From NCBI RefSeq assembly GCF_000143845.1, contig NC_014363.1, positions 853,186 to 917,185 on the forward strand: 64,000 nt of DNA, read 5' to 3'. Position 1 is the stretch's first letter. Every line of letters begins with the position of its first letter. Source of the stretch: Olsenella uli DSM 7084. Lineage in GTDB: Bacteria > Actinomycetota > Coriobacteriia > Coriobacteriales > Atopobiaceae. The position numbers were made by a program, and so were the translations under genes. Below the pieces are notes generated by a model. That model did no database searches and was not told where the DNA came from. It was given only the letters and a program-made list of their open reading frames with translations. Positions 19,145 through 46,070 of this stretch are shown one piece after another.

Positions 19145-19165
19145 TTTCGTGGCGCCTGGTCAGAC

Positions 19166-19241
19166 GGGTCGTTAGCTCAGTTGGTAGAGCAGGGGACTCT
19201 TAATCCCAAGGTCGAGGGTTCGACCCCCTCACGACCCACCA
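19166..19241 (+). tRNA. tRNA-Lys (CTT), copy 1
   Basis: A 76-nt cloverleaf with acceptor GGGTCGT/ACGACCC, D-arm TAGCTCAGTTGGTAGAGCA, anticodon loop CTCTTAA giving CTT, T-loop TTCGACC and encoded CCA. The sequence is identical to the copy 119 nt downstream. Confidence 0.95.
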
Positions 19242-19284
19242 TCTGATTCTCTTGGCCGCAGCGTCCCTGCGGCTTTGCCTTGAC

Positions 19285-19360
19285 GGGTCGTTAGCTCAGT
19301 TGGTAGAGCAGGGGACTCTTAATCCCAAGGTCGAGGGTTCGACCCCCTCACGACCCACCA
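19285..19360 (+). tRNA. tRNA-Lys (CTT), copy 2
   Basis: Identical over all 76 nt to the preceding tRNA-Lys gene. The 43-nt spacer between them differs from the sequence that precedes copy 1, so only the gene itself plus one or two flanking bases is duplicated. Confidence 0.95.
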
Positions 19361-19512
19361 CGAAGATAAGCCCTCGCCTGCGGAAATGCGGGCGGGGGGC
19401 TTTGCGTGGGGACACGTGTCACTCGGTGCTGCTCGGCACCTCGCCCAGAGTCGCCAATTCTCTCGTCGGAATCGTGCTGCCCCATCCCCGCGGCCCCGTG
19501 TCCCACGGGCTC

Positions 19513-43604: not shown

Positions 43605-43629
43605 GGAACCCGGTACGGTGGAGCCCGAC

Positions 43630-44301
43630 GTGCATGACATGGGGCCGTCGGCAAAGGACCGTAAGGCCACGTTGCGAGTGTGTCTGACGTCCCGTCGGGC
43701 TGCCGCCTCCGCTGAGAGACGCGCTGCGGCAGATGCGGCCATCGTGCAACGGGTAGTGCGTCTGCCCGAGTACGCGCGCTCATCTCTCCTGCTCACTTAT
43801 CTTGCCATGGGCGAGGAGGTGGAGACCCGCGGCCTGATTGGGCGCGCCTGGGCGGACGGTAAGGCCGTGGCGCTCCCGCGCTGCCTGCCGGGCAGACGTC
43901 TGGCATGGCAGCGCATCGAATCGCTTGATGGTCTCGTGCGAAGCCCCTTTGGTGTCGAGGAGCCGCCCGACGATCCGGGAGCCCTGGTCGACCTCGGGGC
44001 AGCCATGCCGGATGCATGGCCGCCAGACGCGCGGTCGTCAGGTGTGTGGCCGTCAGATGCGTCCGTGTCAGACGTATTGGCCATCGTACCGGGGCTTGCG
44101 TTTGACCGGCAGGGCTACAGGGTCGGCTACGGCGGAGGCTTCTATGACACGTTTCTCGCAGGCTTTGGTGGCAGCACGATTGGCCTGTGCCGTTCCGGCC
44201 TTCTGAGTGATGATCTGGGGTTGTTGGGCGCCCTTGAGCCCCACGACCTGCCGGTGCAGGTCGTGGTGACGGACACCGAGGCACTCAGGATGGATGCGTG
44301 A
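43630..44301 (+). CDS. 5-formyltetrahydrofolate cyclo-ligase
   Basis: Converts 5-formyl-THF to 5,10-methenyl-THF with ATP, returning stored folate to the one-carbon pool. About 223 residues. The N-terminal R/A-rich helix with KATLRVCLTSRR, the central TYLAMGEEVETRGLI and the C-terminal VPGLAFDRQGYRVGYGGGFYD are the family signatures. GTG 43630 has GGTGGAG 6 nt upstream; GTG 43618 is a second candidate. It begins 25 nt after valS. A proline/serine-rich insert (WPPDARSSGVWPSDAS) near residue 135 is unusual. Confidence 0.88.
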   Translation: MHDMGPSAKDRKATLRVCLTSRRAAASAERRAAADAAIVQRVVRLPEYARSSLLLTYLAMGEEVETRGLIGRAWADGKAVALPRCLPGRRLAWQRIESLDGLVRSPFGVEEPPDDPGALVDLGAAMPDAWPPDARSSGVWPSDASVSDVLAIVPGLAFDRQGYRVGYGGGFYDTFLAGFGGSTIGLCRSGLLSDDLGLLGALEPHDLPVQVVVTDTEALRMDA

Positions 44302-44343: not shown

Positions 44344-44429
44344 TGTGCCACGGACGCGTGGACGGGAGTAGATTAACGGTGACCTCAACCTTAGCAACAT
44401 GAGGTGTGCCACGGACGCGTGGACGGGAG
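44344..44429. repeat. 25-nt direct repeat pair, 61 bp apart
   Basis: The 25 bases at 44344-44368 recur exactly at 44405-44429. Each copy contains CCACG-GACG-CGTGG, a 5-bp hairpin. Between them CCTCA/TGAGG could form another small stem. Confidence 0.85.
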
Positions 44430-44431
44430 GG

Positions 44432-44712
44432 GAATTTTTGTGAGCCGTTCCAGAGAGGCCACTCACAGAAGTTCACCACGTGTCCGGAATTTAGGCCTTG
44501 TTGGATGGCTGAGGAGGAATTGTGAGCGGTGCCAGCGCAACCACTCACAAAGATTCCCCTGGCATCCTCTGAATGCAAAAAAATGGATGGGAGAAGAACC
44601 TTTGTGAGTTGCGTTCACGACTCCGCTCACAGTAGCTCATCTCCCATCCCGAGAAGATAAAAAAGCGGACGTCACACGAACTTTTGTGAGTTGGCTGTCA
44701 CAGGCCATCGCC
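44432..44712. repeat. Array of GTGAG-N17-CTCAC hairpins with exact 82-bp period
   Basis: GTGAG begins at 44440, 44522, 44604 and 44686, each exactly 82 bp after the last. The first three are followed after exactly 17 nt by CTCAC; the fourth lacks its right arm. Arms extend: unit 1 pairs 13 bp (44432-44444 with 44462-44474, two G-U pairs), and unit 3 pairs about 18 of 23 bases (44586-44608 with 44626-44648). Loops and the 55-nt spacers differ between units. Confidence 0.8.
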
Positions 44713-44812
44713 ATCACAGGCCGCCGCCACGACTTGCCATCACGGGCTGTCATATGAAGGTCACCACGCCAGAAGCTGCCGTTCGCGGTGCTGCCGTTCG
44801 TGGGGGCGAGGC

Positions 44813-45733
44813 CTACTGCCCGAAGGACTGCTGCTCGGCCTGGACCAGGCGAGTGAGCACCAGGTTCACGGGCGTGGGGATGCCATGGCGCTTGCCACCC
44901 TCCACGATGGCGCCGTTGATTGCCTTGACCTCGGTCCGACCGCGATGCTCGATGTCCTGGAGCATGGAGCACTTGGTGACTGCAGCCGAGACGGTGACGT
45001 CAACCACATGCCGGTAGATGCCGTCGTAGTCAATGTCGATGCCCTCTGCGCGGGCGACGGCGGAGAACTCCTCCACGGCCAGGCGCTGAATCTCTCCCGC
45101 AGGCTCTATGGAGTGGGTCTCCCCATTCTTGAGGCGGGCAAGGGCTCCGATGGCATTGATGCCCACGTTGACGGCGAGCTTGGTCCACACCAGGGAGTTC
45201 ACGTCTTCGACGCAGTTGACGATGAAGCCGCCTGTGCGCAGGAGATCGGCCAGGCGATTGATGCGCTCCGTAATGCCGCCTGCGTACTCGCCGATGGAAA
45301 TTTCGCCCGTGGCCGTGCCACGCGTCTTGCCCGGCTCGTACATGGTGGCGCCGAAGGTGGTGGTGCCCACGCAGGTGCGCTCCTCGCCCACGACGGAGGA
45401 GATGGTCTCGTAGTTGCCCACTCCATTCTGCAAGGTGAGGACCGTCGTGTTGTCCCCGATGATCTTGAGGCAATCGCGTGCGGCGGTGACGTTGTCGTAG
45501 GACTTGACGGTGAACATGATGAGGTCGGGGTCGGGCACGTCCTCGATGCGGCTCGTGATGGGGACGTCCAGGACCTCTGTTTCGTCTCCGCGGGTCACGG
45601 AGAGGCCCCTCTCTTGGATGGCGCTTACCACCTCGGGACGGATCTCCACCAAGGTGACGTCCTGTCCACTCTTGTAGAGGATGGAGCTAAAGAGGGTGCC
45701 GATGGAACCGGCACCGACAACGGCGATCTTCAC
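44813..45733 (-). CDS. panE: 2-dehydropantoate 2-reductase
   Basis: Reduces ketopantoate to pantoate (pantothenate/CoA synthesis) with NADPH. 306 residues: the N-terminal Rossmann motif KIAVVGAGSIGTLFSSIL, FTVKSYD, LQNGVGN, TTTFGATMYEPG, and the C-terminal KLAVNVGINAIGAL with the catalytic Lys. GTG 45733 is taken as the start since the Rossmann strand begins there and AAAGG lies about 10 nt upstream. The family includes other ketoacid reductases, so the exact substrate is likely but unproven. Confidence 0.85.
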   Translation of the reverse strand: MKIAVVGAGSIGTLFSSILYKSGQDVTLVEIRPEVVSAIQERGLSVTRGDETEVLDVPITSRIEDVPDPDLIMFTVKSYDNVTAARDCLKIIGDNTTVLTLQNGVGNYETISSVVGEERTCVGTTTFGATMYEPGKTRGTATGEISIGEYAGGITERINRLADLLRTGGFIVNCVEDVNSLVWTKLAVNVGINAIGALARLKNGETHSIEPAGEIQRLAVEEFSAVARAEGIDIDYDGIYRHVVDVTVSAAVTKCSMLQDIEHRGRTEVKAINGAIVEGGKRHGIPTPVNLVLTRLVQAEQQSFGQ

Positions 45734-46070
45734 GGTACGCTGCCTTTCTGTCGAGGGAGACGGTCGAGGGCGATGGTAGCAAAGCACTCACCCGCCTCCT
45801 CCGGTCGCAGGCGGCTTTCTAACACGCCAGACATGTTGCATGCCTTTGGGGCGGTGAGGGATACGGGGCATGCGGAGCTGCGAGATGCCTCGCGTGCGCG
45901 CCTTCGCGCATGTCCCTGCGTGTCACCCGTTTGTTGCCGCCTTCGTACGCTTTATGGAATCGGGAGTACCCTGTGCGTCTTTGTGTGCACAATGGTCCGT
46001 GGTCAGTCGTCCCGTGAAATTCGGTAACCATTGGTGCCGCCAGGTGCCATAAAGCGAGGGAGAGCCCGCC
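45734..46070. other. 337-bp divergent intergenic region between panE and fhs
   Basis: No gene is supported. TTGTGTGCACAA (45982-45993 region) is a small inverted repeat with TTGTG/CACAA arms about 80 nt before fhs. No riboswitch was recognised. Confidence 0.45.

Follow-up and report, generated by a model that had tools for sequence, protein, structure and literature searches.

In the genome of the oral bacterium Olsenella uli DSM 7084, the word GTGAG recurs at a fixed interval between two convergent genes. What kind of element keeps such a spacing? The window analyzed here is a 64,000-nt stretch of this genome (contig NC_014363.1, positions 853,186 to 917,185). A sequence-only reading of the window had placed GTGAG at 44440, 44522, 44604, and 44686, with CTCAC 17 nt after the first three, and these coordinates were exact. 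It described hairpins with an 82-bp period and offered three explanations: a repeated protein-binding site, a structured RNA, or a decayed tandem array. Judged by the sequence patterns described below, the protein-binding site appears to be the best supported of the three.

Structure of the array in the window

The array lies between the genes of 5-formyl-THF cyclo-ligase (43618-44301, +) and ketopantoate reductase (44813-45787, -), both supported by Pfam, confirming the convergent location. A repeat finder gave arms of more than five bases, with one and the same arm recurring in alternating orientation. Half-sites were called with a weight matrix built from all array copies in the genome. The window array consisted of seven 24-bp half-sites (44421-44690) in alternating orientation, and every step was exactly 41 bp. 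The 82-bp spacing is therefore exact, but the true step is 41 bp, so 82 is 2 × 41. The 55-nt stretches regarded earlier as unconserved spacers are each made up of 17 variable bases and the greater part of two half-sites.

Half-site 1 (44421-44444, +, GGACGGGAGGGGAATTTTTGTGAG) and half-site 2 (44462-44485, -, GGACACGTGGTGAACTTCTGTGAG) had weight-matrix scores of 35.5 and 26.5, respectively. Their TGTGA ends face each other across a variable 17-bp spacer (44445-44461) that does not visibly resemble its counterparts at other loci. The next 17-bp spacer (44486-44502) belongs to the first unit and has facing GGA ends; its T-tract is weak (ggAATTTagg). Half-site 3 (44503-44526, +, GGATGGCTGAGGAGGAATTGTGAG; score 31.9) and half-site 4 (44544-44567, -, GGATGCCAGGGGAATCTTTGTGAG; score 30.6) again turn their TGTGA ends to a variable 17-bp spacer (44527-44543). 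The GGA-facing spacer that follows (44568-44584, 17 bp) contains the A-tract tctgaatgcaaaaaaat. Half-site 5 (44585-44608, +, GGATGGGAGAAGAACCTTTGTGAG) scored 31.8 and half-site 6 (44626-44649, -, GGATGGGAGATGAGCTACTGTGAG) scored 31.9, with a variable, TGTGA-facing spacer of 17 bp between them (44609-44625). In the last 17-bp spacer (44650-44666), the A-tract cgagaagataaaaaagc adjoins the last half-site, as it does in the final unit of most arrays. Half-site 7 (44667-44690, +, GGACGTCACACGAACTTTTGTGAG; score 30.1) is the right end of the array and has no partner to its right.

To the left, the repeat finder also detected a possible degraded partial half-site (44360-44383, +), which fell below the weight-matrix threshold. 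An exact 25-bp direct repeat (TGTGCCACGGACGCGTGGACGGGAG) occurs there at 44344-44368 and 44405-44429, 61 bp apart; its first copy runs into the possibly degraded half-site and its second into half-site 1. On the other side, at 44694-44747, the last half-site is immediately followed by three short direct repeats of roughly GCCATCACAGGC, possibly a product of local slippage. A covariance-model search of the window with Rfam gave only tRNAs above the gathering score, and the array matched no family. Elsewhere in the window, a 119-bp unit made of a tRNA-Lys(CTT) gene and its downstream spacer is tandemly duplicated (19163-19391).

Copies in the genome and their geometry

The genome of the O. uli type strain (2,051,896 bp) contained 26 intergenic arrays with 164 half-sites. 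Seven half-sites were present at 15 loci, six at five, eight at two, and two to four at the remaining four. An array usually comprises six to eight 24-bp half-sites and spans roughly 230-310 bp. The half-site consensus is GGAYGGC[A/T]GGNGAACTATTGTGAR, carrying about 28 bits. Conserved bases are GGAY at one end, TGTGAR at the other, and G9, G10, A13, and T16 between. The full 24-bp consensus (GGAYGGCAGGNGAACTATTGTGAR) lacks an internal dyad and carries neither a GTAG nor a CGTC tag.

A genome scan, named as a check in the sequence-only reading, was performed with TGTGAG-N17-CTCACA. It gave 26 matches in 2.05 Mb, compared with 0 for the reversed control and about 0.1 expected for 12 fixed bases. 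The GGA-facing form gave 56 matches genome-wide with up to two mismatches, and its reversed control gave 0. All 143 whole-genome matches to a degenerate half-site pattern were inside arrays (reversed control, 0), and this pattern found no solitary half-site. A chance origin was ruled out, as the reversed control patterns gave 0 or nearly 0 matches.

Orientation alternated strictly across the 164 half-sites at all 26 loci. GGA-facing steps measured 41 (56 cases), 42 (12), or 52 bp (3); TGTGA-facing steps measured 40 (30), 41 (32), 51 (3), 30 (1), or 34 bp (1). With all arrays turned in the same direction, the spacing series 40-41-41-42-40-41 or a variant of it was common to 15. A second class, in which all steps are 41 bp, comprised the window array and loci L006, L010, L017, and L019. 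Seven of the eight exceptional steps were 30, 51, or 52 bp, differing from 41 by 10-11 bp, or one DNA turn; the 34-bp step in the degenerate array L040 did not fit helical phasing. At L008, steps of 30 and 52 bp total 82, which looks like a shift of one site by one helical turn with its neighbors in place. Steps of three, four, or five turns support helical phasing but do not prove it, because the exceptions probably stem from only three or four independent events. Such steps are required for protein contacts on the same face and are not needed by an RNA hairpin.

The half-sites facing each other did not covary. Their identity at variable positions was 0.50 and 0.53, versus 0.51 between unrelated arrays (permutation p, 0.68 and 0.20), and a GU-aware test was also negative. 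Facing half-sites are thus no more alike than half-sites across arrays, indicating that stem pairing is not what is conserved and that no recent local duplication occurred. The stems had been taken as the conserved part; the 24-bp word is conserved instead. The absence of covariation, together with spacing that changes in steps of one DNA turn, argues against a structured RNA. A decayed tandem array is also disfavored, since adjacent half-sites of one array resemble each other no more than half-sites of different arrays do, and the same spacing series is kept at 15 loci.

The loops had been described as different in sequence, which agrees with our data: TGTGA-facing spacers are unrelated and near random, and at 41-bp steps they are mostly bounded by TGTGAGY...RCTCACA. 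The GGA-facing spacers of the outer units showed R-TTTT...GGGCC at one array edge and its mirror image at the other. The first unit had on average 3.9 T of 6 versus 0.5 A, and the last unit 4.0 A of 6 versus 0.6 T. Among the 22 arrays with three or more units, 15 had at least four A of 6 in the last-unit A-tract. Such tracts would fit DNA that is bent, or easily bent, where a complex ends.

Distribution and origin of the arrays

Among the genomes searched, the element was restricted to O. uli. It had no match in a first set of 59 genomes of relatives, and 139 other genomes of the family gave single chance matches only. The element may be genus-wide, because the genomes searched belonged to other genera. 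In a collection of 84,980 species, a first search gave 0 matches and a later one 8 single matches in unrelated phyla; these, and 1 match in viral contigs, were taken as chance. A sequence-independent search for alternating arrays in 400 kb of four other genera found none above noise (best, 0.57). Clear O. uli arrays reached 0.68-0.71 at the same settings and 0.67-0.77 at slightly different settings, and the statistic misses arrays with steps of 51/52 bp, such as L013 and L042. In the search for an orthologous locus, the nearest cyclo-ligase was only 60% identical, so there was no close relative for locus comparison. No report was found in the literature on Olsenella repeats; the statistics table of the O. 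uli genome paper lists 'CRISPR repeats 1' (PMC3035265). The array family is real, and apparently unreported and lineage-specific.

The arrays aligned with each other at 65-70% over their full length, with sharp ends at the outermost half-sites, indicating that they are diverged copies of one ancestral element. The best pair was about 70-72% identical, and no near-identical pair was present. Spacers at the same position were slightly more alike across arrays than expected by chance. Array ends had no target-site duplications, and the match length of their flanks equaled that of shuffled flanks. In this the arrays differ from a DDE-type insertion element or MITE. The Y1_Tnp (RAYT-type) transposase domain, PF01797, had no match in the O. 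uli genome and was matched in the control genomes. Because half-sites were kept in almost every copy and spacers were nearly randomized, continued selection on the half-sites would be the simplest reading of this comparison within one genome.

Pfam-supported neighbors of the arrays included pyruvate kinase, HisS, MnmA, a histidine-biosynthesis protein, MetG, a C4-dicarboxylate carrier, glycerate kinase, and an EF-G-like protein. These are unrelated housekeeping genes that have no function in common. Convergent Pfam-supported genes flank the window array, L018, L039, and L042. L019 lies between divergent genes, metG and tyrosine phosphatase, and the other arrays are between same-direction genes or have one neighbor unassigned. 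On the chromosome, 23 of the 26 arrays are 320-900 kb from base 1, on both arms; dnaA is about 5 kb from base 1. A 258-kb stretch (897-1155 kb), centered opposite the dnaA region, is free of arrays, which are mostly mid-arm. Evidence for two clusters is modest (p = 0.012, rising to 0.09 when neighboring arrays are merged).

Possible roles of the arrays

The nearest known kind of element is the BIME (bacterial interspersed mosaic element). BIMEs are regularly spaced REPs in alternating orientation, and in E. coli they bind DNA gyrase (BIME-2) or IHF (BIME-1) (PMC2817692). Pairs of convergent or same-direction genes are the preferred setting of REPs (PMC3733652), whose units are short palindromes (stem-loop), usually tagged with GTAG/CGTC (PMC3733652, PMC2817692). 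The O. uli arrays are likewise dispersed, intergenic, regularly spaced, and alternating, and both mostly adjoin the 3' ends of genes. By analogy, they may function as BIMEs do, offering a place for proteins to dock at the ends of genes. However, the 24-bp unit of O. uli is non-palindromic and untagged, its spacers are nearly random, and its steps are whole DNA turns; REPs also occur singly and are tied to RAYT, whereas O. uli has neither solitary units nor a Y1 transposase. We did not class the arrays as BIMEs, because the palindromic tagged unit, RAYT, and solitary units are all missing. REPINs similarly combine two inverted repeats with a spacer in many copies per genome, but they are short doublets, whereas the O. 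uli arrays are fixed lattices, mostly of six to eight half-sites, whose copies align at 65-70%.

CRISPR arrays also have repeats of about 24 bp and unique spacers of constant length. The O. uli repeats differ in that they alternate and are degenerate (about 50% identical at variable positions), with spacers of 16-18 bp and about seven units per array at 26 loci. We thus agree with the sequence-only reading that the array is neither a simple tandem duplication nor a CRISPR. Iteron clusters and plasmid partition centromeres resemble the arrays as clusters of roughly 20-bp binding sites phased with the helix. Those sites are usually repeated in the same direction at a single origin or centromere, whereas the O. 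uli sites alternate and are scattered over the chromosome.

Three other explanations were weighed against protein docking. A BIME/REPIN-like mobile repeat, whose half-sites would be recognition sites of a transposase and which would copy itself without benefit to the host, is consistent with copies from one ancestor and their sharp borders. It also fits the alternating, intergenic position, mostly at convergent or same-direction genes, as described for REP/BIME (PMC2817692, PMC3733652). The missing RAYT-type transposase, target-site duplications, near-identical copies, and solitary half-sites all speak against it, and the retention of nearly all half-sites per copy beside almost randomized spacers points to continued selection. 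We regard this explanation as rather unlikely. Arrays that control adjoining genes as operators of a regulator are a far weaker candidate. Transcription regulators typically have long specific half-sites arranged as inverted pairs, but the neighbors have no common function, several arrays sit where convergent genes meet at their 3' ends, and a single operator was found nowhere in the genome, making control of this kind very improbable.

The arms could also act as RNA, forming a hairpin from either side so that transcription stops at the following T-tract, as in a bidirectional terminator. Folding of the inverted arms is stable (z, -5.1 and -4.5), a T-tract comes immediately after the second half-site, with its mirror image at the other end, and the window array is flanked by convergent genes. 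However, the arms showed no covariation, plain or GU-aware. The T-tract was as common at ends without the outer arm of the hairpin (16 of 25) as at ends with it (12 of 19; Fisher p = 1), and this independence from the outer half-site argues against a terminator. In addition, the facing loops are long (16-17 nt), about 28 bits are conserved where a hairpin needs complementarity alone, and no Rfam family matched. One terminator scan found none, and the pattern scans as a whole gave almost nothing, although one of them misses longer loops. An RNA or terminator role is therefore improbable.

With some reserve, we favor a reading in which an old dispersed element survives as 26 diverged copies, the window array among them, each retained as a helically phased lattice for the docking of a putative DNA-binding protein. 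In such a lattice, a sequence-specific protein would dock with one subunit per asymmetric 24-bp half-site. Steps of about four DNA turns would place all subunits on almost one face of the helix, and those facing each other would touch both ways, GGA to GGA and TGTGA to TGTGA. These contacts could build a cooperative nucleoprotein complex of about 230-310 bp, and the mirrored A/T-tracts in the outer units are where it may wrap or bend. Chromosome organization would be the most probable role, with a structural or boundary complex in gene-free DNA. A more tentative extension is that the putative protein, on 26 phased lattices, might form wrapped or bridged complexes that organize both arms of the O. 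uli chromosome and leave the terminus region free, as a lineage-specific structuring system.

Dispersed bacterial repeats are usually near-identical mobile copies or hairpins. Here, nearly everything was erased except the putative protein-contact pattern and the spacing, at 26 places in one genome. The binding geometry can thus be read, provisionally, from the DNA, and the 270-bp array offers a defined bait for the protein. Should such a protein organize the chromosome, the known ParB, MatP, SlmA/Noc, and gyrase-BIME systems would be joined by a separate solution specific to this lineage.

The ends of the half-sites varied with the type of joint. Of the 32 joints of 41 bp, 27 had G as the last base of both half-sites; joints of 40 bp had a mixture of A and G, and unpaired TGTGA ends at the edge of an array mostly had A. 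Many arrays had one A+T-rich joint of about TGTGAA-AARTTTTTGNAACYATT-TTCACA (L009, L011, L018, L022, L039, L042, L043, and L044) or an A+T-rich end, often beginning TGTGAATCA (L006, L007, L010, L012, L013, L016, and L017). This joint or end is possibly a third conserved part of the arrays.
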